DNA of 64,000 nucleotides, taken from NCBI RefSeq assembly GCF_030285665.1, contig NZ_CP127295.1, forward strand, positions 992,001 to 1,056,000, read 5' to 3'. Numbering within the stretch: position 1 is the first letter of the stretch; every line of letters starts with the position of its first letter. Below the pieces are notes generated by a model. It was not told where the DNA came from, did not search any database, and was given only the letters and a program-made list of their open reading frames with translations. Origin of the DNA: Amycolatopsis mongoliensis (GTDB taxonomy: Bacteria > Actinomycetota > Actinomycetes > Mycobacteriales > Pseudonocardiaceae). Below are positions 12,285 through 44,914 of this stretch, in pieces. Made by a program: the position numbers and the translations under genes.

Positions 12285-12330
12285 GTCGTGAGTGAGAAAC
12301 AGCGTTAGAACACTGTTTCTCACTCACGAC
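12285..12330. repeat. 46-nt palindromic element, copy A
   Basis: Arms GTCGTGAGTG (12285-12294) and CACTCACGAC (12321-12330) enclose the middle stem AGAAACAGC/ACTGTTTCT (8 of 9 pairs) and the loop GTTAGAAC (12304-12311), whose ends also pair. It lies 8 nt beyond the alpha-galactosidase stop codon. Copy B at 44869-44914 has the same length, arms and loop but a completely different paired middle stem. Confidence 0.85.
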
Positions 12331-12338
12331 GGGGTGGA

Positions 12339-14339
12339 CTAGACGGTGATCTTGTCGACGTCGTAGACGTAACCGGCCTGGTTGCCGACCTGGACCGTGT
12401 TGGCCCCGGCCTGCAGGTACACCGGGACGGTCACGGTCTGCGGCGTGTTCCAGTCGTCGTCGTTGCTCCCGGCGACCGGCAGCGGGAACGACGTCCCGTT
12501 GACGGTGACGATGCCGGTGCGGCTGGAGTCGCCGTCCACATAGGACAGCTGCATGAGGTAGGTACCGGCCCGGGCGGTCGTGACCGTCGGGAGCACGACG
12601 TAGCCGCTGCCGCCGAGGTAGCCGACCTTCTTGCCGCCCGAGCAGGCGCAGTCGTAGACGGTCGCGCCGCCCTGCGGACTGCCGTTCTCCGCCTCGTACG
12701 CCCGGGGGCCGCCGGCCGCGGGCGTCGTCACGCTGATCTTCTTGCTCGCCGCCGACGGCCTGCCGGTCCACTGGTTCGCGACCACCGTGAAGTCGTACGG
12801 CGTCGACGGCTTGAGGCCGGTGACCGTGGCACTGGTGCCGCCGGTGGACGTCACCTTGCGGCCGTTCGCGAAGACGTCGTAGTTCTGCGCGCCCTTCGAC
12901 GCGTCCCAGGCGAGCGAGACGCTGGTGCCGGTGGCGGCAGTGCCGTGCACGACCGCCGGGGCGGCGAGCGCGGTGCGGTCGCGTGGGGTGACCTTGAACA
13001 GGCGCGAGCCGTGCACCGGCAGGTCGCCCGAGGCGTCGCCGACGTCCTTGTGCGCCCACAGGTCGCGGATCCGGACCGGGCCGGTGATGCCGAGCTGCGC
13101 GAGGTCCGCGGTGACGCGCGCCGGCGTCGCGGCGAGGTTGAACAGCGCGACGGTGTAGCTGCCGTCGGCGTTGCGGTTGTACCAGACCTGCTGGTCGGTC
13201 GTCTGGCTCACCGGCTTGGCCGGGACGCCGGCCTGGTTGAGCGCGATGACCTCGTCGTTCGTCAGGAGCTTGACGCCGTAGTCGTCGAGCTGGGTCAGGT
13301 CGTCGCCGAGGTAGAGCGGCGCGGCTTCGATGGCCCAGAGCGTCATGTAGCTCTGGCGCTCGGCCTGGGTGAGGCCGTCCATCTTGCCGCTGCCGACGTC
13401 GAGCGAGTCGAGGTTGTTCCAGTGGCCGGGGCCGGCGTCGGGGATCCACTGCACGACGTCGTTCCAGCGCTGCTTGACCGAGTTGTTCCAGGTCACGAGC
13501 GTGTCGCAGTAGCACTCGACGTCGGTGTCGACGCGCCAGCCGTTGGTGTTGGCCTTCCAGACGTCCGCCTGCCGGTGGCTCAGCGCCCAGGAGATGACGA
13601 ACTCCATCGGACGGCCGGTCTTGGCGATCGCCCGGTGCCACGCCTCGACGTCGGTGGTGTTGGTGTGGTTCTCGCCGCCCTTGAAGGAGCCGGGGCCGAC
13701 GCCGTCGAGCTTGAGGAAGTCGACGCCCCAGCCGGCCAGCAGCTGCGCCACCGAGTCCACGTAGGACTGGGCGCACGGGTTCGTGAAGTCGATCTTGTAG
13801 GCGGAGTCCCAGCCGTTGGTCTTGCGCAGGTCCGGGTAGACGAGGTCCTTGGTGTGGCAGTTCGTGGTCCCCGCGATGGGGGAATTCCCGTCGTTGTAGG
13901 CCTTAAGGTCGAGACCCACCGCCAGGTAGGAGCCGAGCTTCAGGCCCTTCCGGTGGACGTAGTCGGCGACGTACTTCATGCCGTCCGGGAACGTCGTGGG
14001 GTTCACGACCGGGCGGGCGTACTGGTCGAAGGAGTTCGACCAGCCGGCGTCGATGTTGACGTAGGTGTAGCCGTGCTGCTTGAACTTCGCCGCGAGGACG
14101 TCGGCCTGCTGCAGGACGTGCTGCTCGGTGAGCCAGCTGGCCGGGCCGGTCGGGTTGACCCCGGGGTAGTTCGTCGACTCCAGGCTCCAGCTGCTCCAGC
14201 CCATGTAGGGCTTCTGGGCTACCGGCTGCTGCGCTTGCGCCTGGGGGTCCGCGGCTGCCGCGGGCGCGGTGAGCAGACCCGCGAGCACCGTCAAGCCGCC
14301 GAGGACACCCAGGGCCCGTCTGACACGGGAGGCTGCCAT
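12339..14339 (-). CDS. Secreted GH27 alpha-galactosidase with FN3 and C-terminal CBM
   Basis: A 666-residue secreted enzyme. The signal peptide ends near residue 30 (TAPAAAA). The GH27 barrel starts KPYMGWSSW (about 43-51) and has YVNIDAGW (about 93-100). DFLKLDG supplies the nucleophile Asp212, and WRVDTDVECYC (about 268-278) holds the likely acid/base Asp. A GH27 C-terminal beta domain follows, then fibronectin III (about 461-540) and a CBM6/35-like module (about 547-666) that begins YEAENG. It cleaves terminal alpha-galactose outside the cell. The ATG at 14339 fits AAGGAG. It is the first gene of the sugar operon. Confidence 0.94.
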   Translation of the reverse strand: MAASRVRRALGVLGGLTVLAGLLTAPAAAADPQAQAQQPVAQKPYMGWSSWSLESTNYPGVNPTGPASWLTEQHVLQQADVLAAKFKQHGYTYVNIDAGWSNSFDQYARPVVNPTTFPDGMKYVADYVHRKGLKLGSYLAVGLDLKAYNDGNSPIAGTTNCHTKDLVYPDLRKTNGWDSAYKIDFTNPCAQSYVDSVAQLLAGWGVDFLKLDGVGPGSFKGGENHTNTTDVEAWHRAIAKTGRPMEFVISWALSHRQADVWKANTNGWRVDTDVECYCDTLVTWNNSVKQRWNDVVQWIPDAGPGHWNNLDSLDVGSGKMDGLTQAERQSYMTLWAIEAAPLYLGDDLTQLDDYGVKLLTNDEVIALNQAGVPAKPVSQTTDQQVWYNRNADGSYTVALFNLAATPARVTADLAQLGITGPVRIRDLWAHKDVGDASGDLPVHGSRLFKVTPRDRTALAAPAVVHGTAATGTSVSLAWDASKGAQNYDVFANGRKVTSTGGTSATVTGLKPSTPYDFTVVANQWTGRPSAASKKISVTTPAAGGPRAYEAENGSPQGGATVYDCACSGGKKVGYLGGSGYVVLPTVTTARAGTYLMQLSYVDGDSSRTGIVTVNGTSFPLPVAGSNDDDWNTPQTVTVPVYLQAGANTVQVGNQAGYVYDVDKITV

Positions 14340-14412
14340 GACCACTCCTTCGAGGTCGGTGGGGAACTACGCCAGACATCGGAGGACCACGGCCCGAATC
14401 AGCAGAACCATG

Positions 14413-14426
14413 GATCCTATAGGATC
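14413..14426. promoter_or_regulatory. Perfect 14-bp palindrome upstream of the sugar operon
   Basis: GATCCTATAGGATC reads identically on both strands and sits 74 bp upstream of the alpha-galactosidase start. Its size and AT core fit a dimeric GntR/FCD-type operator. The only GntR gene in view (5200-5871) closes this operon. The same intergenic region also serves the divergent AAA ATPase gene. Confidence 0.6.
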
Positions 14427-14518
14427 GACGACGTCAGATTCTTGCTGCTGGGATCGCGGGATGTCAACGGCTGGAGCGGACAGAGATCAGACGAATCTGA
14501 ACTGTCGGGGGTGGCGGT

Positions 14519-14524
14519 TAGGTT
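14519..14524 (+). promoter_or_regulatory. -10 hexamer TAGGTT, probable leaderless promoter
   Basis: TAGGTT ends 6 nt before the ATG at 14531 and no Shine-Dalgarno is visible. Confidence 0.45.
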
Positions 14525-14530
14525 CGGGAC

Positions 14531-15688
14531 ATGCTGACCACGCTGGCCGTCGAGAACTACCGATCGTTGCGCGACCTGGTGCTGCCGCTGTCCGGGCTGA
14601 CCGTCGTCACGGGGCCGAACGGCAGCGGCAAGTCGAGCCTGTACCGCGCGCTGCGGCTGCTGGCGGACGCGTCCCGCAACGGCGCGGTGGCGGCCTTGGC
14701 TGGCGAGGGCGGCCTGCCGTCGACGCTGTGGGCGGGGCCGGAGAACGGGGTCCGCCCGGGCACGCGGGTCCAGGGCACGGTGCGGACGAAGGCGGTCGGG
14801 CTCCGGCTGGGGTTCGCGGGCGACGAGTTCGGCTACGCGCTCGACCTGGGGCTGCCGGTGCCGGTCAAGGAGACGATGTTCAACCTGGACCCGGAGTTCA
14901 AGCGGGAGGCGGTGTGGTCGGGGCCTGTTCTCAAGCCGGCGGCACTGCTGGCGGACCGGGCGGGGCCGTCGGTGCGCACGCGGGCCGAGTCCGGCGGGTG
15001 GGGCCCGGACACCTACCGGATCCGGCTCCCCGACAGCATGCTGAGCGAGTTCGCGGACCCGCGGGCGTGCCCGGAACTGCTGGTGGTGCGCGAGCGGATC
15101 CGCTCGTGGCGGTTCTACGACCAGTTCCGCACGGACGCGTCGGCGCCGGCCCGCCGGTCCCGGATCGGCACGCGCACGGTCGTCCTGTCCCACGACGGCG
15201 CGGACCTGGCGGCGGCGTTGCGCACGATCATCGAGATCGGCCGCGCCGCGGACCTGGCCGCGGTGGTCGACCAGGCGTTCCCGGGGTCGCGCGTGGAGGT
15301 GCTCGCCCAGGAGGGCGGCGTGCTGTCGGTCCAGTTCCGCCAGCAAGGCCTTCTGCGTCCGCTTTCGGCGGCGGAGCTCTCGGACGGGACCCTTCGGTTC
15401 CTCCTCTGGGTGGCGGCGCTGCTTTCCCCACGCCCGCCGGAGCTGCTCGTACTGAACGAGCCGGAGACGAGCCTGCACCCGGACCTCCTCCCGGCCTTGG
15501 CGAGCTTGATCGCGACGGCGGCGAAGGAGACCCAGCTGGTGGTGGTCTCCCACGCCCAGCCGCTCATCCGGGCGCTGTCGGAGATCGCGGACGTGGGGGC
15601 TTTGGAGCTGGAGAAGGAGAACGGGGAGACGAAGCTGGTGGGCCAAGGCCGGCTGGACCGGCCTTCGTGGCACTGGCCGAAACGCTGA
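14531..15688 (+). CDS. AAA ATPase (SMC/RecF-like, AAA_21 type)
   Basis: A 385-residue ABC-type ATPase of the RecF/SMC-like predicted-ATPase group. It begins LAVENYRSLRDLVLPLSGLTVVTGPNGSGKSS (Walker A about 28-36). A signature-like LSAAELSDGTLRFLLW follows, then the Walker B region ELLVLNEPETSLHP (about 307-320) and the switch histidine in LVVVSHAQPL. There is no long coiled coil and no nuclease domain, so it is not a full OLD nuclease. No partner gene is next to it. Solitary members are of unknown role; some are toxin or defence components, but nothing here supports that. Confidence 0.85.
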   Translation: MLTTLAVENYRSLRDLVLPLSGLTVVTGPNGSGKSSLYRALRLLADASRNGAVAALAGEGGLPSTLWAGPENGVRPGTRVQGTVRTKAVGLRLGFAGDEFGYALDLGLPVPVKETMFNLDPEFKREAVWSGPVLKPAALLADRAGPSVRTRAESGGWGPDTYRIRLPDSMLSEFADPRACPELLVVRERIRSWRFYDQFRTDASAPARRSRIGTRTVVLSHDGADLAAALRTIIEIGRAADLAAVVDQAFPGSRVEVLAQEGGVLSVQFRQQGLLRPLSAAELSDGTLRFLLWVAALLSPRPPELLVLNEPETSLHPDLLPALASLIATAAKETQLVVVSHAQPLIRALSEIADVGALELEKENGETKLVGQGRLDRPSWHWPKR

Positions 15689-15786
15689 CTCACCTGGACG
15701 GCCGGCTCGGGTCCATTGGCCCTGGTGACTCCACCCGCTCAGGCGGAAGGTGGGTGGATCGTCCGCCGCGTCCGAAAGTCCCGACC

Positions 15787-16149
15787 ATGCGTCCGTTCGC
15801 CATCGCCGGCCTGTTCGCCGCCGCCGTGCTCACCGGCGGCTGCACGGCCGCACCCGCCGCGCAGACTCCGCAGCCGGTGCCGACCACCACCACCGTCACC
15901 GCCGAGCCCGTGACCGTCACGGCCACCACGACCGAAACCGTGCCCACGACGGTGACCAGCGTGGTCACCAAGGCGAAGGCCGCGCCCAAGACCACCCGAC
16001 CCAAGGCCGAGGACTGCCGGACCGGCGGCTGCCTGAACGCCGCCCGGGGGATGAGCCAGGAGGACGTCGACCGCGAGCGGGACGCCTGGCTCGCCACCCA
16101 TCCCGGCTGGTGCGCCGTCGGAACCACCGGCGCCGTCGCGCCCTGCTGA
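15787..16149 (+). CDS. Small Thr-rich lipoprotein, unknown function
   Basis: A 120-residue protein with a lipoprotein signal and lipobox LTGGC (Cys19). It is followed by a low-complexity Thr/Val-rich stretch (about 30-65) that would span the wall, and a short C-terminal domain with four cysteines (EDCRTGGCLNAARG...WCAV...PC), probably two disulfides. The family is not recognised. It lies 98 bp after the ATPase and converges with the LacI gene 4 bp away. Confidence 0.7.
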   Translation: MRPFAIAGLFAAAVLTGGCTAAPAAQTPQPVPTTTTVTAEPVTVTATTTETVPTTVTSVVTKAKAAPKTTRPKAEDCRTGGCLNAARGMSQEDVDRERDAWLATHPGWCAVGTTGAVAPC

Positions 16150-16153
16150 AAGC

Positions 16154-17155
16154 TCAGCGGCCCCGGGTGCTTTCCCGGATCTCCAGTGCGAACGGTGTCT
16201 GGATGTCCTGTGGCGGCAACGCCTTGTCCCCCGTGATGCGCCGGTGCACGAGGTCGATCGCCGCCTCGGCCAGCGCCGTCTTGTCCGGGGCGATCGTCGT
16301 CAGCGCCGGCAACGAAAACGCGCTCTCTTCGTTGTTGTCGAACCCCACGATCGCCACGTCCTCCGGCACCCGCAGCCCCAGCTCGGCCACCGCCCGGAGA
16401 GCGCCGATCGCCAGCAGGTCGTTGAAGCAGAACACCGCGTCGGGCGGGGAGTCCAACGCCAGCAACGATCTCATCGCCGCCGCGCCCACCGAGCGGTGCC
16501 ACTTCTCCGCGGGCGCCACGAGCGAGTCCGAATAGGACAACCCCGCCTCGGCGAGCGCCGCCCGGTACCCCGCCAGGCGCTGGGACGACGTCCCGCGAGC
16601 GGGGTTGCGCCCGATCGCCGCGATGCGCGTCCGGCCCAGGGACGCCAGGTGGGACACCGCCGTCTGCGCCGCCAGGACGTTGTCGATCGCCACGTGATCG
16701 ATCGGCACGTCCACCGCGTGCTCGCCCAGCATCACCAGCGGGATCTCGCCCGGCGACGGGAAGTCCGCGGCCTCCAGCGCCTCCGGGTGCACCAGTGCGC
16801 CGTCCACCAGGTGCGGTCCCAGCGACGACAGCGTCTCGCGCTCCCGTGAGCGCGTCCCCTGCGTCTGCTCGATCAGGACGCTCCACCCGCGCTTCTGCGC
16901 CGCAGTGATGACCAGGCCCGCCAGCTCGCCGAAGTACGGGATCGACAGCTCCGGCACCATCAGCGCCAGGAACCCGGTGCGGCCGCGACGCAGGTTGCGC
17001 GCACCCACGTTGGGCCGGTACCCGGTCGCCGCCAGGGCTTCCTCGACGCGCCGGCGGTTCTCCGGCTTGACGAAGGCGTAGCCGTTGACCACGTTCGACA
17101 CCGTCTTCACCGACACTCCGGCGAGCGTGGCGACGTCCTTGAGCGTCACGGTCAC
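16154..17155 (-). CDS. LacI-family sugar-responsive repressor
   Basis: A 333-residue repressor. The HTH is at about residues 3-25 (TLKDVATLAGVSVKTVSNVVNG) with the hinge RNLRRGRTG, then a periplasmic-binding-protein-like effector domain ending in GFDNNEESAFSLPALTTI. The GTG at 17155 has AAGGAG; the frame's earlier start at 17224 would put the operator inside the gene. It is divergent from an Rbs-type importer and GH2 enzyme, which it most probably represses through the dyad at 17207-17233. The effector sugar is unknown. Confidence 0.94.
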   Translation of the reverse strand: MTVTLKDVATLAGVSVKTVSNVVNGYAFVKPENRRRVEEALAATGYRPNVGARNLRRGRTGFLALMVPELSIPYFGELAGLVITAAQKRGWSVLIEQTQGTRSRERETLSSLGPHLVDGALVHPEALEAADFPSPGEIPLVMLGEHAVDVPIDHVAIDNVLAAQTAVSHLASLGRTRIAAIGRNPARGTSSQRLAGYRAALAEAGLSYSDSLVAPAEKWHRSVGAAAMRSLLALDSPPDAVFCFNDLLAIGALRAVAELGLRVPEDVAIVGFDNNEESAFSLPALTTIAPDKTALAEAAIDLVHRRITGDKALPPQDIQTPFALEIRESTRGR

Positions 17156-17206
17156 GGGCGGCTCCTTCTCAGGTGGTGAGCACGAAGCATAGCGACAATT
17201 TGCCGG

Positions 17207-17233
17207 TTTACAACGTTGTTCCAACGATGTAAA
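17207..17233. promoter_or_regulatory. LacI-type operator region
   Basis: TTTACAACGTTG (17207-17218) and CAACGATGTAAA (17222-17233) form a 12-bp inverted repeat with one mismatch and a 3-nt centre. Inside it, ACAACGTTGT (17210-17219) is a perfect 10-bp palindrome with a central CpG, typical of LacI operators. CCAACGATGT (17221-17230) is a near copy. It lies between the divergent repressor and transporter genes. Confidence 0.75.
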
Positions 17234-17310
17234 AAGTACCTCAAGGCTCCCGCGGTGACTCCGATCACCCCGGTGAGCGGGCCACCACCGTCGCTGCCCG
17301 AGGAGTCACC

Positions 17311-18387
17311 GTGCCTCTGTCCACCCGTCCCTTCCTGGTCGCCGCCACCGCGGCCGCCGCCGCGCTCGCCCTCACCTCCTGCACCAGCCGGGAAGAGACC
17401 CCGGCCGCCCCCTCCAGCGGCGGCGGGCCGGCCGCGTCCGCGCAGTCCGTCGCGCCGTCCGCCGACGGCTGCACCCTCGACAAGACCGGTTACCCCAAGG
17501 TCGACCTGAAGACCGCGGTGGTCGGTTTCTCACAGTCCGAAAAGGAAGCCAACCCCTTCCGGATCGCCGAGACGCAGTCCATTCGCGACGAAGCCGCCAA
17601 GCTCGGCATCGCGAGCGACAAGCTGCTCGTCACCAACGCCCAGAGCGACCTGAACAAGCAGATCAGCGACATCAAGTCGATGCTCGACCGGGGCGCCCAG
17701 CTGCTGGTCGTCGCGCCGCTGAACTCCGACGGCCTCCAGCCCGCGCTCGACGCGGCGAAGGCCAAGAAGGTCCCGGTCGTCACCATCGACCGCAAGGTGA
17801 CGTCGCAGCCCTGCACCGACTACCTGACCTTCATCGGCTCGAACTTCGTCGAACAGGGCAAGCGCGCCGCCCAGGAGATGGCGCGGGTCACCGGCGGCAC
17901 CGGCAAGGTCGCGATCCTGCTCGGCTCCTCCGGCAACAACGTGACCACCGACCGGACCCAGGGCTTCAAGGACGAGCTCGCCAAGACGGCCGGCCTCTCC
18001 GTGGTCGCCGAGCAGACCGGCGAGTTCGACCGCTCCAAGGGCCAGGCCGTGATGGAGCAGCTCATCCAGAGCCACCCCGACATCACCGCCGTCTACGCCG
18101 AGAACGACGAGATGGGCGTCGGTGCGGTCAACGCGCTGAAGACCGCCGGCAAGACGCCGGGCAAGGACGTCAAGGTCATCTCCATCGACGGCACCCGCAA
18201 CGCGGTGCAGCTCATCGCCGACGGCAGCTACAACGCCGTGATCGAGTCCAACCCGCGCTTCGGCCCGCTGGCCTTCCAGACGCTGCAGAAGTTCGAGGGC
18301 GGCGAGGCCATCCCGGCGAGCATCGTGATCACCGACGACCAGTACGACGAGACCAACGCCGCGCAGAAGGTCGGGAACGCGTACTGA
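17311..18387 (+). CDS. Rbs/Xyl-type sugar-binding lipoprotein
   Basis: A 358-residue type-I periplasmic-binding-fold lipoprotein. The lipobox ALTSC gives Cys24, then a Ser/Pro/Ala linker to about residue 50. The binding domain has VGFSQSEKEANPFR, the AAPLNSDGL region (seen as VVAPLNSDGLQPAL) and VYAENDEMGVGAVNAL, characteristic of ribose/galactofuranose-class (CUT2) binding proteins. GAGGAG precedes the GTG at 17311. It is first of a five-gene operon and overlaps the ATPase start (TGATG). Confidence 0.93.
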   Translation: MPLSTRPFLVAATAAAAALALTSCTSREETPAAPSSGGGPAASAQSVAPSADGCTLDKTGYPKVDLKTAVVGFSQSEKEANPFRIAETQSIRDEAAKLGIASDKLLVTNAQSDLNKQISDIKSMLDRGAQLLVVAPLNSDGLQPALDAAKAKKVPVVTIDRKVTSQPCTDYLTFIGSNFVEQGKRAAQEMARVTGGTGKVAILLGSSGNNVTTDRTQGFKDELAKTAGLSVVAEQTGEFDRSKGQAVMEQLIQSHPDITAVYAENDEMGVGAVNALKTAGKTPGKDVKVISIDGTRNAVQLIADGSYNAVIESNPRFGPLAFQTLQKFEGGEAIPASIVITDDQYDETNAAQKVGNAY

Positions 18388-19943
18388 TGACGGCAGCCAC
18401 CGAAGAGGACGTCGCCATGACGACCGCACCGGTGCTCGAGGTGGCCGGGGTGACCAAGCGGTTCCCCGGCACCCTCGCGCTCGACGACGTGAGCTTCGCG
18501 CTGCGACCGAGCGAGGTGCACGCGCTGGTCGGCGAGAACGGCGCGGGCAAGTCCACGCTGATCAAGGTGCTCACCGGCGTCTACCAGCCCGACGAGGGCG
18601 AGGTGCGCCACCTCGGCGAGCCGGTGACGTTCAAGCGGCCGATCGACGCGCAGCGGGCCGGGATCTCCACGATCTACCAGGAGGTCAACCTCGTCCCGCT
18701 GATGAGCATCGCCGGCAACGTCTTCCTCGGCCGCGAACCGCGCACGAAGGCCGGTCTCGTCGACTGGCCCAGGATGTACGCCGACGCCCGCGAGCTGCTC
18801 AAGGGCTACGGCATCGACGACGACGTCAAGCGCCCGCTGCACACGCTCGGCGTCGGCGCGCAGCAGATGGTCGCGCTCGCCCGCGCGGTCTCGACCGACG
18901 CCAAGGTCGTCATCATGGACGAACCGACGTCGTCGCTCGAGCCGCGCGAGGTCGAGACGCTCTTCGAGGTGCTGAACCGGCTGCACGCCGAGGGCATCGC
19001 GATCGTCTACGTCAGCCACCGGATGGACGAGCTGTACCGGGTCTGCGAAAGCGTCACCGTGCTGCGCGACGGCCGGGTCGTCCACAGTGGACCGCTGGCC
19101 TCCCTGCCGCGCATCGAGCTCGTGTCCAAGATGCTCGGCCGCGAGATCAAGCAGATCCGCGAAGAGGGCGTCACCGCATTCGGCGAGGAACACGACGTCG
19201 AGCGCGAACCGCTGCTCAAGGCGGAGAACCTGTCCGGCATGCGGAAGCTCCACGACGTCTCGGTGAGCATCCGGCCCGGCGAGGTCGTCGGCCTCGCCGG
19301 GCTGCTCGGCTCCGGCCGCAGCGAAACGGCGCGGGCCATCGTCGGCGCGTTCCCCCTCGACGGCGGAAGCGTGCTGCTCGCGGGCAAACCGCTCAAGAAG
19401 GGCAAGATCGCCGCGGCCATGCGGGCCGGGATCGCGCTGCTGGCCGAGGACCGCAAGACCGACGGGATCATCCCGAACCTGTCGGTCCGCGAGAACATCG
19501 TGCTGGCCGCGCTGCCGACGCTCTCGCCGTTCGGCCTGGTCAGCAAGGCCAAGCAGGACAAGGTCGTCAAGATCTTCATGGACCGCCTGCGGATCAAGGC
19601 GGCCAGCCCAGAGCAGAAGGTGTCCGAGCTGTCGGGCGGCAACCAGCAGAAGGTGCTGCTCGCCCGCTGGCTGGCCACCGGCCCGAAGATCCTGCTGCTC
19701 GACGAGCCGACCCGCGGCATCGACGTCGGCGCCAAGGCCGAGGTCCAGGCGCTGATCGACGAGCTCGCGCAGGAAGGACTCGGCGTGCTGCTCATCTCGT
19801 CCGAGCTGGAAGAGCTGATCGACGGCTCCGACCGCGTGGTCGTGCTGCGCGACGGCTCGGTCGTCGGCGAGCTGACCGGCGACCGCATCACCGAGGAGAA
19901 CGTCCTGACCGCGATCGCAGCCGAGGGTGACAACGATGTCTAG
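18387..19943 (+). CDS. CUT2 sugar ABC transporter ATPase (two NBDs)
   Basis: A 518-residue tandem ATPase of the RbsA/MglA type. NBD1 has Walker A GENGAGKST and Walker B VVIMDEPTSSL. NBD2 has the family's degenerate Walker A (GLLGSGRSE), signature LSGGNQQK and Walker B ILLLDEPTRGID. It energises the two permeases that follow. The ATG at 18387 overlaps the previous stop; an internal ATG at 18417 is an alternative start that would shorten the leader by ten residues. Confidence 0.95.
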   Translation: MTAATEEDVAMTTAPVLEVAGVTKRFPGTLALDDVSFALRPSEVHALVGENGAGKSTLIKVLTGVYQPDEGEVRHLGEPVTFKRPIDAQRAGISTIYQEVNLVPLMSIAGNVFLGREPRTKAGLVDWPRMYADARELLKGYGIDDDVKRPLHTLGVGAQQMVALARAVSTDAKVVIMDEPTSSLEPREVETLFEVLNRLHAEGIAIVYVSHRMDELYRVCESVTVLRDGRVVHSGPLASLPRIELVSKMLGREIKQIREEGVTAFGEEHDVEREPLLKAENLSGMRKLHDVSVSIRPGEVVGLAGLLGSGRSETARAIVGAFPLDGGSVLLAGKPLKKGKIAAAMRAGIALLAEDRKTDGIIPNLSVRENIVLAALPTLSPFGLVSKAKQDKVVKIFMDRLRIKAASPEQKVSELSGGNQQKVLLARWLATGPKILLLDEPTRGIDVGAKAEVQALIDELAQEGLGVLLISSELEELIDGSDRVVVLRDGSVVGELTGDRITEENVLTAIAAEGDNDV

Positions 19944-21875: not shown

Positions 21876-21904
21876 GCCCCGTCCCCCACCAGGAGGTCTC
21901 AACG

Positions 21905-33628: not shown

Positions 33629-33649
33629 GGATGCCGGTAATCTTCGTGT

Positions 33650-34879: not shown

Positions 34880-34896
34880 CCAACCGAAGATGGGAA

Positions 34897-36193: not shown

Positions 36194-36249
36194 CCTTCCA
36201 GCGAGGAGCACATCCTCACAGGTCAGGAGGCAACCGAACCGGGGGGGCA

Positions 36250-36580: not shown

Positions 36581-37015
36581 TCAGTCGAGACAGAACTCGT
36601 TGCCCTCGACGTCCTGCATCACGATGCACGACTCGTTGAAGCCATCGGCCAGCAGCACTCGCTCCTGCACCGCCCCGAGCGCGATCAACCGCTCGCACTC
36701 CGCCTGGAGTGCGGCCAGGCGCTCGTCGCCCACCAGCCCGGTGCCCACCCGCACGTCGAGGTGGACCCGGTTCTTGACGACCTTGCCTTCCGGAACGCGC
36801 TGGAAGAACAGCCGCGGCCCCACGCCCGTGGGATCCGCGCAGGCGAACGCCGCGCCCTGGCGGTCGGGCGGCAGGGACCTGTCGAACTCGGCCCAAGTGG
36901 CGAACCCCTCCGGTGGTGGGGGGACGACGTACCCCAGCACCTCGCACCAGAACCGGGCGACACGCTCGGGTTCCGCACAGTCGAAGGTGATCTGGACCTG
37001 CTTGACCGACGCCAT
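36581..37015 (-). CDS. VOC/glyoxalase-like protein
   Basis: A 144-residue protein of the vicinal-oxygen-chelate superfamily: QVQITFDCAEPERVARFWCEVLGY, GPRLFFQRVPEGKVVKNRVHLDVRVG and SCIVMQDVEGNEFCLD at the end. The expected His/Glu metal positions are partly kept (HLDV, NEFC). It resembles the glyoxalase_6 type, of unknown substrate. The ATG at 37015 follows TAGGGT by 6 nt and has no standard ribosome site. Confidence 0.88.
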   Translation of the reverse strand: MASVKQVQITFDCAEPERVARFWCEVLGYVVPPPPEGFATWAEFDRSLPPDRQGAAFACADPTGVGPRLFFQRVPEGKVVKNRVHLDVRVGTGLVGDERLAALQAECERLIALGAVQERVLLADGFNESCIVMQDVEGNEFCLD

Positions 37016-37021
37016 CCGCCC

Positions 37022-37027
37022 ACCCTA
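37022..37027 (-). promoter_or_regulatory. -10 hexamer TAGGGT, probable leaderless promoter
   Basis: On the minus strand TAGGGT ends 6 nt before the VOC start codon, the same hexamer as at 635-640. Confidence 0.45.
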
Positions 37028-37071
37028 ATGCCACCCCCGATGCGCCGGCCGAACCGACCGGCGCATCCCGA

Positions 37072-37671
37072 TCACTCCCCCGCGCCCGCCAGCAGCTGGT
37101 CGAACGGGACGAACTCCGGCTCGCCGGTCGCCGGCGGCCGTCCGGCGGCCAGCGAGGCCAGCTCCGCCCCCGCCTTCTCGATGCGCCGCTGCAAGGCTCC
37201 CTCTCCGCTCCCCCAGTCCGACGAGGCCGCATACACCCCGGTCGCGACCGGATCCGCCTTCAGGTACCCGAACAACGGCCGGAGCTGGTAGTCGAGGACC
37301 AGCGAGTGGCGTTCCGTTCCGCCGGTCGCTCCGAGCAGCACCGGCTTGCCCGCCAGCGAGTCCGCGTCCAGCACGTCGAAGAACGACTTGAACAGCCCGC
37401 TGTACCCCGCCGTGAACACCGGGGTCACCACGATCAGCGCGTCCGCGCCGACGACCGTCGAGATCGCCGAACGCAACGCCGGGCTCGGGAACCCCGTCAG
37501 CAGGTTCTTCGTCACGTCCAACGCGATGTCGCGCAGCTCGACGACCGAAACCGACACCGGCTCCGAGGCCGCGGCCGCGGCCGCGGCCACCGTGGCCGCG
37601 GCCAGGCGATCCGCCAGCAGCCGGGTCGACGACGGGACCGACAGCCCCGCCGTCACCACCGCGAGCTTCAT
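37072..37671 (-). CDS. NAD(P)H-dependent FMN reductase (CE1759-like, LLM partner)
   Basis: A 199-residue flavodoxin-fold reductase: KLAVVTAGLSVPSSTRLLADRL at the start, GADALIVVTPVFTAGYSGLFKSFFDVL (FMN site) and KPVLLGATGGTERHSLVLDYQLRPLFGYL. This is the NADPH-dependent FMN reductase type found paired with LLM monooxygenases (CE1759/CE1758 pairs). It would supply reduced FMN to the neighbour. The ATG overlaps the LLM stop codon (ATGA). A GGCCGC microrepeat encodes a run of alanines at about 26-35. Confidence 0.9.
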   Translation of the reverse strand: MKLAVVTAGLSVPSSTRLLADRLAAATVAAAAAAASEPVSVSVVELRDIALDVTKNLLTGFPSPALRSAISTVVGADALIVVTPVFTAGYSGLFKSFFDVLDADSLAGKPVLLGATGGTERHSLVLDYQLRPLFGYLKADPVATGVYAASSDWGSGEGALQRRIEKAGAELASLAAGRPPATGEPEFVPFDQLLAGAGE

Positions 37672-38768
37672 ACCGCCACCTCCGCCGAAGCCGAAGCCGC
37701 CGCAGCCGCCGCCAACGACGCGTGCGTCGGCGCGTCCGGGACGTGGGCCGGGCGCAGCGCGTCCAGCTCCTTGCGCAGCACCGGAACCACTTCCCCGCCG
37801 AGCAGGTCGAGCTGCTCCAGCACCGTCTTCAACGGCAGGCCCGCGTGGTCCATCAGGAACAGCTGGCGCTGGTAGTCACCGAAGTGCTCGCGGAACGTCA
37901 GCGTCTTGTCGATGACCTCCTGCGGGCTGCCCACCGTCAGCGGCGTCTGGTCGGTGAACTCCTCCAGCGACGGGCCGTGCCCGTACACCGGCGCGTTGTC
38001 GAAGTACGGCCGGAACTCGTTCCACGCGTCCTGCGACTTGGGCCGGATGAACGCCTGCCCGCCGAGCCCGACGATCGCCTGGTCGGCCGCCCCGTGCCCG
38101 TAGTGCTCGAACCGCTGGCGGTAGAAGGAGATGAGCTGCTGGAAGTGCTCCTTCGGCCAGAAGATGTGGTTGGCGAAGAAGCCGTCTCCGTAGAACGCCG
38201 CCTGCTCGGCGATCTCCGGGCTGCGGATCGAGCCGTGCCACACGAACGGCGGGACGCCGTCCAGCGGCCGCGGCGTGGACGTGAAGCCCTGCAGCGGCGT
38301 GCGGAACTTGCCGGACCAGTCGACGACGTCCTCGCGCCACAGCCGGCGCAGCAGCGCGTACTTCTCGATCGCCAGCGGGATGCCCTGGCGGATGTCCTCG
38401 CCGAACCACGGGTAGACCGGGCCGGTGTTGCCGCGGCCCATCATGAGGTCGACGCGGCCGTCGGCGAGGTGCTGCAGCATCGCGAAGTCCTCGGCGATCT
38501 TCACTGGGTCGTTCGTGGTGATGAGCGTCGTCGACGTCGAGAGGATGATCTTCGACGTCTGCGCCGCGATGTGCCCCAGCATCGTCGTGGGCGACGACGG
38601 CACGAACGGCGGGTTGTGGTGCTCGCCGGTCGCGAACACGTCGAGCCCGACCTCCTCGGCCTTGAGCGCGATCCGGACCATCGCCTTGATCCGCTCGTGC
38701 TCCGTCGGCGTGGTGCCGTTCGTGGGATCGGTCGTGACGTCGCCCACCGTGAAGATTCCGAACTGCAT
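37668..38768 (-). CDS. LLM-class flavin-dependent monooxygenase (CE1758-like)
   Basis: A 366-residue luciferase-like TIM-barrel oxidoreductase: MQFGIFTVGDVTTDP, VFATGEHHNPPFVPSSPTTMLGHIAAQTSKI, VDLMMGRGNTGPVYPWFG and DGFFANHIFWP. It uses reduced flavin and oxygen, made available by the FMN reductase translated next. The ATG at 38768 follows GGGAG. The C-terminal 20 residues are an Ala-rich tail. Substrate unknown; flavin-dependent oxidation of an organosulfur or aromatic compound is possible. Confidence 0.92.
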   Translation of the reverse strand: MQFGIFTVGDVTTDPTNGTTPTEHERIKAMVRIALKAEEVGLDVFATGEHHNPPFVPSSPTTMLGHIAAQTSKIILSTSTTLITTNDPVKIAEDFAMLQHLADGRVDLMMGRGNTGPVYPWFGEDIRQGIPLAIEKYALLRRLWREDVVDWSGKFRTPLQGFTSTPRPLDGVPPFVWHGSIRSPEIAEQAAFYGDGFFANHIFWPKEHFQQLISFYRQRFEHYGHGAADQAIVGLGGQAFIRPKSQDAWNEFRPYFDNAPVYGHGPSLEEFTDQTPLTVGSPQEVIDKTLTFREHFGDYQRQLFLMDHAGLPLKTVLEQLDLLGGEVVPVLRKELDALRPAHVPDAPTHASLAAAAAASASAEVAV

Positions 38769-38862
38769 GACCTGCTCCCTTCGCGACCCCCATCTTACAT
38801 GCGCATTCAACTACTTCCAAGCAAGAGATATTCCGGCCGTCAATGCCGGACGGGGCACCAAG

Positions 38863-38868
38863 TAAGGT
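38863..38868 (+). promoter_or_regulatory. -10 hexamer TAAGGT, probable leaderless promoter
   Basis: TAAGGT ends 7 nt before the ATG at 38876. Confidence 0.45.
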
Positions 38869-38875
38869 CAGGGAC

Positions 38876-40165
38876 ATGGACGCGGAGCTCGGTCGGCTGG
38901 GTCTGGCAGAACGTTCGGTACGACTTCTCACGGGCCGCGACATCTGGGGCTCGATCACCCCACTGCTCGCGCCTCGCCGGAACCTGGTGGCCGCCTTCGG
39001 CCACGTCGGTCCCGGCGCGGCCGCGCTGCTGCCGCTGGAACCCGGCGACACGCTGATCACGGACGCGAGCCTGGACACCGTGCTGTCCGGTGCGACGAGC
39101 CCGCACGCCCTGCTGCACTGGGTGAAGGCGGGCGTGATCGTGCACTCGCTGCGCGGGCTGAACGCGAAGCTGGTGATCGCCGAGGACGACCCGTCGTTCG
39201 TGGTGGTCGGCTCGGCGGACGTGACCGCCGCCGGCCCGCGGCAGTTGTTCGAGGCGGTGACGGTCTCCCACGAGAAGCACACCGTCGAGGAGGCCCAGGA
39301 GGCCTGGCTCGAGTGGTGCGACCTGGCGGGACCCGCGCTGACGGCGGGTGACCTGGAGCCACTCCTGGAGCAGTACGGCGCCGGCAAGCCGGTCACCGCG
39401 CAGCGCCCCGCCGCCCCCACCCGCGCCGCGGCACCCGCCCGGTCCGTGGTGACGAGCCGCCCGGCGACGCCCGTCCGCCCCGCCGCCCCGGCCCCGCCGC
39501 CGTCCCCGGTCCGGCCCGCGGCACCCGCCCGGGCCGCCGAGGTCACGCCGGCCCCGGCACCCCCGGTCGAGCCGGCGGCACCGGAACCGGTTGCGACCGC
39601 GGCCGCCGTGACCGAGCCGGAACCCGGCGACACGCCGGACACGACGGAGACGCCGACCGACGTTCCCCGGCCCTCCTGGCCGCGCCCGGCCGAGCTGTAC
39701 CTCGTCAGCCTCGTCGAGGGCGGCGAGCCGTCGGCCGAGGCCGAGTACCGGCTCGAAGAACTCACGCGCGAGTACACCCACCCCGGCGAGAACGGCGAAC
39801 AGCCGTTCCGCGTCGAGCTGTTCTGGGCCGACGACGGCCAGGGCCAGGACCCGCCGCGCACGCTCCGCCCGGGCGTGCACGTGATCCGCGTCTACAGCCA
39901 GAAGCAGGGGCGCGCCCTGGTCGGGTCGCGGATCGAGGCCCCCGGCCTCGTGCTGCAGGCGCACACCGACGAGTTCGCCTACCCGCGCCGCACCTACTGC
40001 TACATCCTGACCCGGGAGACGGCCGCGAGGCCGGCGTTCGGCGACCTCCGCAAGGCCCTCGCCGCGATCGGCGAGAAGCCGAACTTCCGGAACAGCTTCC
40101 AGGTCCCGCGGAAGATCGAAGCCCTGCTGGGCCTGTGGCCCGACCTGGGCTACGACCCCCGCTAG
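38876..40165 (+). CDS. PLD-like protein with degenerate HKD motif and Pro/Ala linker
   Basis: A 429-residue cytoplasmic protein. The N-terminal 170 residues resemble a phospholipase D/nuclease-like domain: GVIVHSLRGLNAKLVIAEDDPSFVVVGSADVT is laid out like HxKxxxxD...GSAN, but the histidine is Asn96 (NAK), so catalysis is doubtful. Residues about 175-255 are a Pro/Ala/Thr-rich linker. The C-terminal 170 residues (PAELYLVSLVEGGEPSAEAEYRLEEL...YPRRTYCYILTRETAARPAFGDL) form an unrecognised domain. ATG at 38876 is preferred over 38843 because of TAAGGT. It precedes parE in the same direction. Confidence 0.72.
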   Translation: MDAELGRLGLAERSVRLLTGRDIWGSITPLLAPRRNLVAAFGHVGPGAAALLPLEPGDTLITDASLDTVLSGATSPHALLHWVKAGVIVHSLRGLNAKLVIAEDDPSFVVVGSADVTAAGPRQLFEAVTVSHEKHTVEEAQEAWLEWCDLAGPALTAGDLEPLLEQYGAGKPVTAQRPAAPTRAAAPARSVVTSRPATPVRPAAPAPPPSPVRPAAPARAAEVTPAPAPPVEPAAPEPVATAAAVTEPEPGDTPDTTETPTDVPRPSWPRPAELYLVSLVEGGEPSAEAEYRLEELTREYTHPGENGEQPFRVELFWADDGQGQDPPRTLRPGVHVIRVYSQKQGRALVGSRIEAPGLVLQAHTDEFAYPRRTYCYILTRETAARPAFGDLRKALAAIGEKPNFRNSFQVPRKIEALLGLWPDLGYDPR

Positions 40166-40300
40166 CGGGCGGCGCGCGCCACTCCGGGACAGGGAGCGCG
40201 CGGAAGTTGTCGGGGTGGGCGGATATCCTGCAGTACGGTGCAGGCCGAGTCCGTACCACCACCAGCACTTTCGCGAGCCACGATCCGGGAGAACGACCCT

Positions 40301-42352
40301 GTGACTGCCGAGACCTTGTACGGGGCCGACGACCTCACCCACCTCGAGGGTCTCGAAGCCGTCCGCAAACGCCCCGGGATGTACATCGGCTCCACCGACA
40401 GCCGGGGCATCAACCACCTCTTCTCCGAGGTGGTCGACAACTCGACGGACGAGGGTGTCGCCGGCCACGCGACGAAGATCGTCGTCACGCTGCACGCCGA
40501 CGGCAGCGTCCAGGTGGACGACGACGGCCGCGGCATCCCCACCGGCACCCACGCCAAGTCCGGTTTGTCCGGCGTCGAGCTGGTGCTGACCCGGCTGCAC
40601 GCCGGCGGCAAGTTCGGCGGCTCGGGCTACAAGACCTCCGGCGGCCTGCACGGCGTCGGCGCTTCGGCGGTCAACGCGCTGTCGCACCGCTTCGACGTCA
40701 CGGTGAAGCAGGACGGCAAGGTCCACCAGATGTCGTTCAAGCACGGCATCCCCGGCACCTTCGACGCGCCCGGCCCGAAGGCGAAGTTCACCCGCCGCTC
40801 CGGGCTGAACCTCGTCGGCAAGATGAAGCGCGGCGAGCGCAGCGGCACCTCGATCCGCTACTGGTACGACGCGCGGTACTTCGAGTCCGGCGCGGCGCTG
40901 GACGTCGAGGGCGTGCGGGCGAAGCTGCGCAACACGGCGTTCCTGGTCCCGGGCGTCACGTACGTGCTGCGCACCGCGATCGAAGACACCATCACCGAAG
41001 AGACCTTCCACTTCCCGCACGGCCTCGTCGACATGGTCGACTTCCTGACCCCGTCGGGTGAAAAGCCGGTCTGCGGCACGCTGCTGATCACCGGCGAGGG
41101 CACGTACAAGGAGAACGCGGCGGACGCGGCCGGCGTCATGCAGTCCAATGTGGAGCGGCACGCCGAGGTCGAGGTGGCGCTGCGCTGGGGCACCGGCTAC
41201 GAGCGCACGGTCGAGTGCTTCACCAACACGATCCGCAACGTCCACGGCGGCACGCACCGCCGCGGCTTCGACCGCGCGATGGCGAAGGCGTTGCAGGACG
41301 CGATCTCCAAGACCCGTGGGCTGCTCAAGCCCAAGGAGGACATGCCGACGATCGAGGACGTCCTCGAGGGCATGACCGCCGTCGTGCACGTCCGGCTGCC
41401 AGAGCCGCAGTTCACGTCGCAGACGAAGGACGAGCTGTCCACCGCCGGCATCACCCGCGTCATCCAGGGCATCGTCGACAAGCACGTCAAGGCCTGGACC
41501 GAGGACCGCAAGACAAAGTCCGAGGCCAAGGTCGTGCTGCAGAAGGTGGTCGACGCCTCGCGCGTCCGGCTCACCCAGAAGCAGCAGAAGGACGCGGCCC
41601 GGCGCAAGACCGCGCTCGAGGGCGCGGCGATGCCGCCGAAGCTGGTCGACTGCCGCACCACCGGTGTCTCGCGCAGCGAGTTGTTCCTGGTGGAGGGTGA
41701 CAGCGCGCTCGGGTCGGCGCGCATGGCGCGCGTGTCGGAGTACCAGGCGCTGCTGCCGCTGCGGGGCAAGATCCTGAACGTGCAGAAGGCGTCGCTCGGC
41801 GACACGCTGAAGAACGCCGAAATCGCGTCGATCGTGCAGGTCCTGGGCGCGGGCACCGGGCGCACGTTCGACCTGACGACCATGCGCTACGGCCGCGTCA
41901 TCCTGATGGCGGACGCGGACGTCGACGGCTCGCACATCCGGACCCTGCTGATCACGCTGTTCGCGAAGTACATGCGTCCCGTGATCGAGGACGGCCGGCT
42001 GTACGCCGCGATGCCGCCGTTGCACAAGCTCGTCACGAAGGGCCGCAACCCGGAGACGCACTTCACGTACACGCAGCAGGAGATGGAAACCAAGTACGCC
42101 GAGCTGGAGCGGGCGGGCAAGAGCATCGTCACGCCGGTGCCGCGGTTCAAGGGTCTCGGCGAGATGGACGCCGACGAGCTGTGGGAGACCACGATGAACC
42201 CGGCCACCCGCTCGGTCCGCCGGATCACCATGGACGACGCCGAGGCCGCCGAGGGCGCGCTGGAGCTGCTGATGGGCGAGAAGGTCGAGCCCCGGCGGAA
42301 CTGGCTGGTCGCCTCCTCGGACCGGATCGACCGCGACGCCATCGACGCTTAA
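40301..42352 (+). CDS. parE: Type IIA topoisomerase B subunit (ParE/GyrB paralogue)
   Basis: A 683-residue ATPase subunit. The GHKL domain has LEAVRKRPGMYIGSTD, EVVDNSTDEGVAGHA (ATP/Mg site), DDGRGIP and the ATP lid GGLHGVGASAVNAL. The TOPRIM domain has ELFLVEGDSALGSA and ADADVDGSHIRTLL; the C-terminal PRFKGLGEMDADELWETTMNP ends the family. The GTG at 40301 has GGGAGAA. It pairs with the A subunit 27 bp on. The isolated pair, far from dnaA/recF neighbours, fits the second actinobacterial topoisomerase (topo IV, ParY/ParX) rather than housekeeping gyrase. Confidence 0.93.
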   Translation: MTAETLYGADDLTHLEGLEAVRKRPGMYIGSTDSRGINHLFSEVVDNSTDEGVAGHATKIVVTLHADGSVQVDDDGRGIPTGTHAKSGLSGVELVLTRLHAGGKFGGSGYKTSGGLHGVGASAVNALSHRFDVTVKQDGKVHQMSFKHGIPGTFDAPGPKAKFTRRSGLNLVGKMKRGERSGTSIRYWYDARYFESGAALDVEGVRAKLRNTAFLVPGVTYVLRTAIEDTITEETFHFPHGLVDMVDFLTPSGEKPVCGTLLITGEGTYKENAADAAGVMQSNVERHAEVEVALRWGTGYERTVECFTNTIRNVHGGTHRRGFDRAMAKALQDAISKTRGLLKPKEDMPTIEDVLEGMTAVVHVRLPEPQFTSQTKDELSTAGITRVIQGIVDKHVKAWTEDRKTKSEAKVVLQKVVDASRVRLTQKQQKDAARRKTALEGAAMPPKLVDCRTTGVSRSELFLVEGDSALGSARMARVSEYQALLPLRGKILNVQKASLGDTLKNAEIASIVQVLGAGTGRTFDLTTMRYGRVILMADADVDGSHIRTLLITLFAKYMRPVIEDGRLYAAMPPLHKLVTKGRNPETHFTYTQQEMETKYAELERAGKSIVTPVPRFKGLGEMDADELWETTMNPATRSVRRITMDDAEAAEGALELLMGEKVEPRRNWLVASSDRIDRDAIDA

Positions 42353-42379
42353 ATTTCGTAGCTACCAAGGAGTTCTGCC

Positions 42380-44866
42380 GTGGCACGCCGCAAGGGCACC
42401 ACCACCAAGGTCGATCCCAGCGCGTTCGACTCCGCCGGGGCGAACGTCTTCGACAACTCGCTGAAGACCGAGATCGAAGACTCCTACCTGGAGTACGCGT
42501 ATTCGGTCATCCACTCGCGCGCCCTGCCGGACGCGCGCGACGGGTTGAAGCCGGTGCACCGCCGGATCCTGTACTCGATGAACGAGAACGGCTACCGCCC
42601 GACGCACGCGTACGTGAAGTCGTCCCGTGTGGTCGGCGACGTCATGGGCAAGTACCACCCGCACGGTGACGTCGCGATCTACGACGCGATGGTGCGGCTG
42701 GCGCAGGACTTCTCGCTGAACGTGCCGCTGATCGACGGCCACGGCAACTTCGGCTCGCCCGACGACGGCCCGGCCGCCTCGCGGTACACCGAAGCGCGCA
42801 TGTCGCCCGAGGCGATGCAGCTGGTCGGCGAGCTCGGCGAGGACACCGTCGACTTCCGGCCGAACTACGACGGTTCGCTCGAAGAGCCGTCCGTGCTGCC
42901 CGCGGCGTTCCCGAACCTGCTGGTCAACGGCACGTCCGGGATCGCGGTCGGGATGGCGACCAACATGATCCCGCACAACCTCGGCGAGGTCGTCGCCGCG
43001 GCGCGGTGGCTGATCACGCACCCGTCCGCGACGCTCGACAAGCTGATGGAGTTCGTCCCCGGCCCCGACCTGCCGACCGGCGGCAGCCTGCTGGGCCTGG
43101 ACGAGGTCCGCCGCGCGTACGAGACCGGCCGCGGCGTGGTCCGGATGCGGGCGAACTGCGAAACCGGGCCCCTCGAAGGCAGCCGCGGGCGGCAGGCGAT
43201 CACCGTCACCGAGCTGCCCTACGGCGTCGGCCCGGAGAAGGTGATCGAGAAGATCACCGACGAGGTCAACAAGTCCAAGCGGCTCACCGGCATCGCCGAC
43301 GTCAAGGACCTCACCGACCGCGAGAACGGCACGCGGCTGGTCATCGAGTGCAAGGTCGGCGTCAACCCGCAGGCGCTGCTGGCCGACCTGTACCGGCTGA
43401 CGCCGCTGGAGCAGTCGTTCGGCATCAACAACCTGGTGCTCGTCGACGGCCAGCCGCAGACGCTGGGGCTGAAGGAGCTGCTGGAGGTCTTCCTCCGCCA
43501 CCGCTACGAGGTCGTCACGCGGCGCACGAAGTACCGGCGCCGGAAGCGCGAAGAGCGGCTGCACCTGGTCGACGGCCTGCTGATCGCGCTGCTGAACATC
43601 GACAAGGTGATCAAGCTCATCCGCGAGAGCGAGAACGCGCAGGCCGCGAAGGACGGCTTGATGACGCGCTTCAAGCTGTCGGAGATCCAGGCGACGTACA
43701 TCCTCGACACCCCGCTGCGCCGGCTGACCAAGTACGACCGGCTGGAGCTGGAGTCGGAGCAGGATCGGCTGCGCGAGGAGATCGCGGAGCTGACCAAGAT
43801 CCTCGACGACGAGTCCGTGCTGAAGAAGCTCGTCTCGGCGGAGCTGGCGAAGATCGCGAAGGACTTCCCGACCGAGCGCCGCACGTCGCTGATCGACGGC
43901 GACCTCAAGGAGGTCCTGGCCGCGTCGAAGCCGTCCGGTCCCCTGGAGGTCACGGACGACCCGTGCCAGGTGATCCTCTCGGCGACCGGGCTGGTGGCGC
44001 GCACCGCGGCCGAGTCCGAGGAGTCGACGGAGACGCGCCGCCGCAACGGCCGCGTGAAGCACGACGCCGTCGCGGCGGTGGTCCACACGACCGCGCGCGG
44101 CCAGGTGCTGCTGGTGACGAGCCGTGGCCGGGCGTTCAAGACCGACGTCCTGCCGTTGCCGGTGCTGCCGGAGCAGGCGGGCACCGTCTCCCTGCGCGGC
44201 GGCATGGCGGCCAAGGAGCTCGTGCCGCTGGAGAAGGGCGAGACGGTCGTCGGCATCGCGCCGCTGGGCGAGCAGGCGGCGGGTTCACCGGGCCTGGCGC
44301 TCGGCACCCGGGCCGGGGTGGTGAAGATCTGTTCGCCGGAGTGGCCGGTGCGTTCGGACGAGTTCGAAGTGATCTCGTTGAAGGACGGCGACGAGGTCGT
44401 CGGCGCGACGTGGCTGACGGACGGCTCGGAGACGCTGGCGTTCGTGTCGTCGGAGGCGTCGCTGCTGAAGTACGCGGCCTCGCTGGTCCGCCCGCAGGGC
44501 CTGAAGGGCGGCGGCATGGCAGGTATCAACCTGAGCGGCGACGCGTCGGCGGTGTTCTTCGGCGCGATCCGCACGGACGACGACGAGCACGGCGAACCCC
44601 TGGTGATCACCTCGACGGGGCAGAGCGTGAAGGTGACCCCGTTCAGCGAGTACCCGGCCAAGGGCCGAGCGACGGGCGGCGTCCGGGCCCAGCGGTTCCT
44701 GAAGGGCGAGACAGCTCTCCGAGTGGCGTGGATCGGCCCGCGGCCGGCGGGCGCGGCCCGCAACGGCGACCCGGTGGAGCTCCCGGAGATCGACGTCCGC
44801 CGCGACGGCTCGGGCCACGCACACCCAGGCCCCGACGTGGTGGGCCACCTCATCGAGCGCGACTGA
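42380..44866 (+). CDS. parC: Type IIA topoisomerase A subunit (ParC/GyrA paralogue)
   Basis: An 828-residue DNA-cleaving subunit: [17 protein letters not shown], the active tyrosine in AASRYTEAR (Tyr136), and a C-terminal beta-pinwheel from about residue 500. No clear GyrA box (QRRGG[KR]G) is seen, which favours decatenase over supercoiling gyrase. In the quinolone-binding helix [11 protein letters not shown], Val98 replaces the usual Ser83 while Asp102 is kept. AAGGAG precedes the GTG. The stop codon is 2 nt before palindromic copy B. Confidence 0.92.
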
Positions 44867-44868
44867 CG

Positions 44869-44914
44869 GTCGTGAGTGTTTAGGCGGGTTAGAACCCGCC
44901 TAAACACTCACGAC
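44869..44914. repeat. 46-nt palindromic element, copy B
   Basis: Arms GTCGTGAGTG (44869-44878) and CACTCACGAC (44905-44914), middle stem TTTAGGCGG/CCGCCTAAA (9 of 9 pairs), loop GTTAGAAC (44888-44895). It begins 2 nt after the parC stop codon and ends 4 nt before the dehydrogenase stop codon, so it sits between convergent units. Arms and loop equal copy A (12285-12330). Confidence 0.88.

Follow-up and report, generated by a model that had tools for sequence, protein, structure and literature searches.

The window analysed here, a 64-kb (64,000-nt) stretch of the genome of the soil bacterium Amycolatopsis mongoliensis, contains two 46-nt hairpins that share their arms and centre but differ in the middle of the stem, which raises the question of what kind of element keeps its ends fixed while its paired interior changes. 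An earlier note on this DNA had described the two copies, and direct reading of the letters bore out their positions, arms and loop, together with a core pairing of 8/9 in the copy at 12285 and 9/9 in the copy at 44869. The copies, their parts and the adjoining genes are the following, in window coordinates:

12285 to 12330, no strand assigned: palindrome F1 copy 1, GTCGTGAGTG / AGAAACAGC / GTTAGAAC / ACTGTTTCT / CACTCACGAC, core class AGAAACAG
12285 to 12294, plus strand: left arm of copy 1
12295 to 12303, plus strand: variable left core of copy 1
12304 to 12311, plus strand: conserved centre GTTAGAAC of copy 1
12312 to 12320, plus strand: variable right core of copy 1, 8/9 paired
12321 to 12330, plus strand: right arm of copy 1
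12339 to 14345, minus strand: alpha-galactosidase (Melibiase_2) gene by Pfam, ending 8 nt from copy 1
11382 to 12263, minus strand: ABC transporter permease (BPD_transp_1) gene, downstream of copy 1
44869 to 44914, no strand assigned: palindrome F1 copy 2, GTCGTGAGTG / TTTAGGCGG / GTTAGAAC / CCGCCTAAA / CACTCACGAC
44869 to 44878, plus strand: left arm of copy 2
44879 to 44887, plus strand: variable left core of copy 2
44888 to 44895, plus strand: conserved centre GTTAGAAC of copy 2
44896 to 44904, plus strand: variable right core of copy 2, 9/9 paired
44905 to 44914, plus strand: right arm of copy 2
42380 to 44866, plus strand: topoisomerase IV/gyrase subunit A gene by Pfam, ending 2 nt from copy 2 and used as orthology anchor

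Each copy has a stop codon within 8 nt, as had been claimed: the minus-strand TAG at 12339-12341 lies 8 nt past the end of copy 1, and copy 2 starts 2 nt after the TGA at 44864-44866. Pairing in copy 2 reaches two more pairs each way (44867-44916). Folding each copy on each strand gave energies of -34, -37, -47.3 and -46.7 kcal/mol, and in each of these four folds none of 200 shuffles was as good; the hairpin pattern itself was absent from all 100 shuffled versions of the window. No Rfam family matched the window at its gathering score or higher. Opposite copy 2, and facing it, the acyl-CoA dehydrogenase gene (44919-46621, minus strand) appears to be in pieces (ORFs 45365-46621 and 44982-45449), and DNA resembling window 44947-46500 is present in many related genomes despite this fragmentation.

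The earlier note would have been refuted had only these two copies existed, or had cores never varied elsewhere. Neither is the case, as the A. mongoliensis genome (10.8 Mb, one contig) holds 134 copies in which exact 10-nt arms enclose 10-45 nt, with varying cores and against none for a backwards-read control pattern. The pattern TCGTGAGTG-N26-CACTCACGA, with exact 9-nt arms, has 156 copies. With as many as three mismatches tolerated across the 18 arm bases the count was 165 (control 1), only nine more, so decayed copies are almost absent. In two other genomes, that of a close relative (G282) and G118, we counted 111 and 182 exact copies, and 114 (control 0) and 189 (control 3) with up to three arm mismatches. 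Complete reading of 464 kb of A. mongoliensis gave 20 copies, of which 19 have both decamers exact and one has a single mismatch; single arms are rare, since 39 of the 40 occurrences of the arm decamer there sit in paired elements. Of 298 genomes sampled from the order, 19 matched with exact 10-nt arms, and the few of these outside the genus mostly have one copy; of 200 sampled from the family, 59 matched with exact 9-nt arms, spread over 17 of 46 genera. Among 396 genomes drawn from the phylum, A. mongoliensis was the only match. Copy number is patchy even within genera (388 in G802 against 1 in G791, and 76 in G764 against 0 in G715), ranging from 0 to 443 across the family, which indicates that the host does not need the element. 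F1 is a 46-bp palindrome family of Amycolatopsis and some other Pseudonocardiaceae, and we found no description of it in the open-licence literature.

Alignment of the 73 A. mongoliensis copies of 46 nt separated a near-fixed frame from a changing interior. Positions 2-10 and the G-C pair 20/27 are invariant. One or two copies deviate in the remainder of the centre GTTAGAAC and at the A-T pair 14/33, and positions 11-13 and 15-19 are variable, each showing between two and four kinds of Watson-Crick pair. Such near-fixed arms and centre suggest sequence-wise recognition by a putative binder. Pairing extends to all 22 positions in 47 of the 73 copies. Core pairs are Watson-Crick in 87.7% of cases among 99 unique sequences from three genomes (57.4% when shuffled) and in 86.4% among 22 representatives (48.9% when shuffled). 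As the 99 sequences were gathered by exact arms, arm invariance is there by construction in that set, and the independent test of it is the arm search with up to three mismatches. It had been proposed that the middle of the element conserves structure rather than sequence. Pairing far above shuffles upholds this in part, but at least one core pair is broken in 38 of 98 A. mongoliensis copies, in 61 of 72 from G282 (the 72 being taken from 100 of the 105 copies counted there within one mismatch of a 26-base pattern) and in 13 of 30 from G118, and copies of two unlike halves occur among the matches listed for G271 and G069. Core pairing is strong, not absolute.

Two possible signs of a role at the RNA level showed no bias. 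Core mismatches in the unique sequences comprise 19 G-T, 23 A-C and 68 others among 891 core cells; they are not biased to G-T and so do not show selection on RNA pairing alone. Loop strand, taken as a sign of RNA polarity, showed no orientation bias either, as the loop reads AG at 10 tandem sites, CT at 10 and otherwise at 1. Outside the arm, a motif resembling AGCCGCGGCAGACC accompanies some copies: 42 of 196 A. mongoliensis flank ends match it at 11 or more of 14 positions, compared with 2 of 196 in an inward-reading control, and in 34 of these 42 it stands exactly one base outside the arm. The corresponding figures are 18 of 144 flank ends in G282 (control 0) and 11 of 60 in G118 (control 1). 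With a looser pattern it was found on one side of 32 A. mongoliensis copies and on both sides of one (33/98). Examples lie at genome positions 822875, 1299623 and 4552640, and in some orthologous pairs the motif is present in one genome only.

We compared copies at the same chromosomal site across genomes. In total, 103 copies from G282 and G118 were tested for an orthologous place in the A. mongoliensis stretches at hand (part of that genome), and 37 were mapped by both flanks. Twenty-nine of these are G282 sites, 26 with the element in both genomes and three with something else in A. mongoliensis, namely an F2 palindrome (313246), an F4 palindrome (874718) and a 1.8-kb stretch (258524). Flank identity over the sites with F1 in both genomes averages 91.9%, while 259 of 468 core positions and 2 of 520 arm positions differ; the arm figure is partly by construction because the search demanded 18 of 20 arm bases. 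The core class changed at 18 of the 26 sites: an A. mongoliensis core of TTTAGGGCG type corresponds to a G282 core of AGAAACAG type at 14 sites and one of GTAATTCGG type does so at 4, with the AGAAACAG type retained at the other 8. Between A. mongoliensis and G118, five of seven shared sites changed class, four of them from TTTAGGGCG to GTAAGGCGG; one further mapped G118 row (flanks 73% and 79%), without an A. mongoliensis element, resembles a chance coding match. In the G282 comparison, 105 core pairs have both bases replaced and are Watson-Crick in each genome, 25 have one base replaced, and a further 12, altered at both bases, lack pairing in one genome or in both. At seven sites both flanks align without gaps over at least 30 of 40 identical bases, and there four cores were exchanged (5, 10, 14 and 15 of 18 bases) and three were nearly unchanged (0, 0 and 1 bases). 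Site 626754 has three different cores in the three genomes. Sites are thus retained between species while the core is replaced.

These class changes, 18 of 26 and 5 of 7, and the cores that prevail in each genome are the pattern of concerted evolution, in which copies within a genome are more alike than same-site copies across genomes. The prevailing cores are TTTAGGGCG (21/98) and GTTAGGGCG (14/98) in A. mongoliensis, AGAAACAGG (23/72) and AGAAACAGT (21/72) in G282, and GTAAGGCGG (13/30) in G118. The suggestion that the hairpins form a family of palindromic elements exchanging covarying cores therefore holds up on the family count, the same-site comparison and the core pairing alike.

The site of window copy 2, behind the topoisomerase IV A gene (window 44866), was followed through 42 of 80 named loci (one of them occurring twice) and, separately, through the 30 of 60 genomes of the genus that yielded loci. 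Seven of the 30 have F1 there, with the core TTTAGGCGG in A. mongoliensis, G118 and G839, TTTGGGCGA in G872, TTCAGGCGG in G859, GTAAGGCGC in G843 and TGAAACAGG in G826. Several other genomes have different hairpins between the same genes, and inspection of the stretch found no hairpin in some, for example G282 and G853. Qaidamihabitans and Kibdelosporangium persicum carry the element behind this gene, and its outermost pair there is C and G. Repeats like GTAACTCGCGTGATTGAAGCC replace the single hairpin at this place in some species of the A. orientalis group (loci L044, L049 and L052).

The cores at the topoisomerase site bear on whether the differences could have accumulated by ordinary vertical inheritance, through compensatory point mutations in a stem that is selected as RNA, as in Bacillus cereus terminators. 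There too stems stay paired while bases change (PMC5381666), F1 cores do covary, and TTTAGGCGG, TTTGGGCGA and TTCAGGCGG are one or two compensated pairs apart. We nevertheless consider this explanation improbable, as A. mongoliensis and G282 cores differ by 55% and their flanks by 8%, and many sites switched to an identical new core. In addition, the terminators are described as changing by single compensated pairs with G-U as the commonest intermediate (PMC5381666), whereas in F1 whole cores change and the mismatches contain no G-T excess. The core swap is hard to explain by ordinary mutation and points to copying between copies.

What such an element might do is suggested by where it lies. 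Gene context was assigned with an in-house gene caller for 74 copies in the A. mongoliensis stretches and was usable for 72; copies 859281 and 864786 were excluded as lying inside a doubtful 15.8-kb ORF call, on the opposite strand of which an ORF gave no Pfam match. Position relative to stop codons, which the earlier note had marked for checking, proved strict: 70 of the 72 copies face a stop codon, 64 at 25 nt or less and 48 at 8 nt or less. The stop is inside the element in 30 copies and in 21 is the TGA of an arm. Forty-eight copies lie between convergent genes, 22 between tandem and 2 between divergent ones. Of the 382 junctions in the 464 kb, 64 are convergent (Fisher p 7e-17 against 48/72), a comparison biased by the fact that the stretches outside the 464 kb were picked for holding a copy; of the 20 copies inside the 464 kb, 11 lie at convergent junctions, 7 at tandem ones and 2 in the doubtful ORF. 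One divergent case results from an insertion, as an ORF sits between identical copies at 1483632 and 1484752; G282 and G118 have one copy there, and the A. mongoliensis locus adjoins a transposase-like ORF. This locus (L116, 1482323-1484797) comprises a transposase-like ORF pair and the ORF between the twin copies. From the resemblance of their first residues, we take the enclosed ORF to be AbiEi-like and its neighbour to be an IS3-type transposase. The idea that the twin copies form a transposase cassette was rejected, since the neighbour reads as IS3-type, not as a RAYT.

A stable hairpin behind a stop codon is what an intrinsic terminator requires, and F1 provides it. The ends of F1, however, carry 1.20 T per 8 nt (118 ends) compared with 1.06 in the background and 1.89 at other gene-end hairpins, and in the absence of a T-run F1 is not a classical intrinsic terminator. 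Another parallel is found in the bidirectional terminators or Bi-TEPs of Streptomyces, at which transcript ends overlap on both strands (PMC8269248), the role that we propose for F1. Bi-TEPs differ in having been defined by RNA data, with no fixed-sequence arms described in the available text (PMC8269248). Other hairpins can occupy an F1 site, as with the F2 and F4 palindromes of A. mongoliensis where G282 has F1, and with the different hairpins behind the topoisomerase gene in related genomes. A transcript-end element working in both directions is suggested by the gene-end location, the indifference to strand and this substitution of one hairpin for another.

Near-invariant arms at a fixed spacing, a conserved centre and the lack of strand preference could also be read as the binding site, in DNA, of a protein that organises the chromosome or otherwise recognises specific sequence, with transcript ends merely tolerating such sites. 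We regard this as very improbable, because a pure DNA site would need neither strict placement after stops nor a self-pairing core, and because single arms are so scarce (39 of 40 decamers in pairs in the 464 kb). The same count separates F1 from DNA uptake sequences, likewise fixed short words that form gene-end hairpins as inverted pairs (see also PMC2267715); the F1 arm word hardly ever occurs singly, and its pairs flank 26 nt of interior sequence.

Another explanation is that F1 is a non-autonomous mobile element of the REP/REPIN kind, its differing cores due to separate insertions or to one element replacing another by transposition aimed at existing hairpins, with gene ends being where insertion is harmless. 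REPs are high-copy short intergenic palindromes, and REPINs consist of two conserved inverted ends with a less conserved middle (PMC3116915; PMC3733652). F1 is similar in being a short palindrome at high copy outside genes (156 copies; 70/72 behind stops), in having more than 100 copies, in its patchy bursts within genera, and in standing at G282 sites where A. mongoliensis has F2 or F4; the AGCCGCGGCAGACC motif at its fixed offset could be the remnant of a longer element. On the other hand, F1 is a single 46-bp unit whose core is replaced at fixed sites between species, and exact sites and indel-free flanks are retained while the core changes, with almost no decayed copies. The Y1 transposase domain (Y1_Tnp, PF01797) had no match in A. 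mongoliensis, G282 or G118, nor in G712, G716 and G802 despite their 330-443 copies, and was matched in 5 of 36 genomes. A GTAG tag stands within 8 nt of the end in only 2 of 98 A. mongoliensis copies. F1 thus resembles REP/REPIN in style and fails two defining tests, the Y1 transposase and the tag, and membership of the RAYT/REP system was rejected on these grounds. CGTC-tagged palindromic repeats are likewise small palindromes, apparently without a dedicated transposase (PMC3733652), but CGTC stands beside only 3 of 98 copies (within 8 nt of the end), and the available text places these repeats in other phyla with no mention of 'actinobacteri' (PMC3733652). Direct repeats of 2-9 nt at the edges of 98 copies were not above control beyond chance, and an insertion element that duplicates its target was rejected for this reason. 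On balance, we find the mobile-element reading, including its account of the gene-end location, unlikely, although for the core exchange insertion by a REP-like system is the chief alternative.

On the interpretation that we favour, and hold to be probably correct, the 3'-end palindrome is a putative transcript-end element for both directions, and its cores are overwritten in place with sequence copied from other copies. The lack of a T-run, the patchy copy number and the absence of a hairpin behind the topoisomerase gene in genomes such as G282 and G853 count against it. The symmetric hairpin would act as a two-way terminator or 3'-end boundary; its arms and centre would be recognised by sequence, and the core would be needed mainly as a stem. 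The core may be copied from another copy, as a whole element or by halves, for which the mixed-half copies can be cited. Arm-to-arm correction inside the palindrome by template switching might then keep the arms matched, and each genome would acquire its own prevailing cores. Template-switch repair has been described for RNA hairpins, where one event alters several bases and the stem stays paired (PMC8794818). It acts within one hairpin (PMC8794818), and so leaves the common new core of many F1 copies unexplained.

The sharing of sequence between donor and recipient would be limited to the edges, and 9-10 bases per edge are very short for RecA-type conversion. Gene conversion was reportedly put forward for REPs by Higgins et al. 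in 1988. Copying by reverse transcription is not supported in general, as the reverse transcriptase domain RVT_1 (PF00078) is present in 16 of 28 genomes, G282 included, and absent from A. mongoliensis, G118, G251, G764 and G818. We tentatively raise the possibility, itself doubtful, that a dedicated system recognises the 9-nt arms, perhaps with the centre, and rewrites the 26-nt interior in place from other copies, with no need for long homology, a Y1 transposase or, in A. mongoliensis, RVT_1, leaving each genome with a core 'dialect' peculiar to it at over 100 gene ends.

F1 provides a clear natural example of concerted evolution acting on very short, dispersed pieces of DNA: the element keeps its place, its arms and its neighbours and has its interior exchanged. 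Should this exchange prove to be copying from one copy to another, it would proceed with a shared edge of only 9-10 nt, well below what homologous recombination is presumed to need. It also offers a testable family-wide model for how transcript ends could be marked without T-runs in high-GC actinomycetes.

Several other palindrome families were noticed in the A. mongoliensis genome. F2, beginning CCGTGAATGGCACATYGAGGGAC, lies at window 5146-5196 (genome 997146) and at genome 313246 and 457645, with convergent genes at all three places. F3, built on CCCAATGTGGCGTTCGGTGCG, was seen at 240897, 246112, 349561, 353961, 411959 and 421480, several copies being 83-87 nt long with repeated units. F4, beginning CCGTGAAGGMCTCCTTACCGGC, is found at window 58053-58103 (genome 1050053), where it is inside a called gene, and at 847528 and 874718. 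F5, built on GTGAATGACTCATTCATGTC, occurs at 308493, 342954, 365923 and 460375, and the arms of its 53-nt forms are at most two mismatches from the F1 arm.
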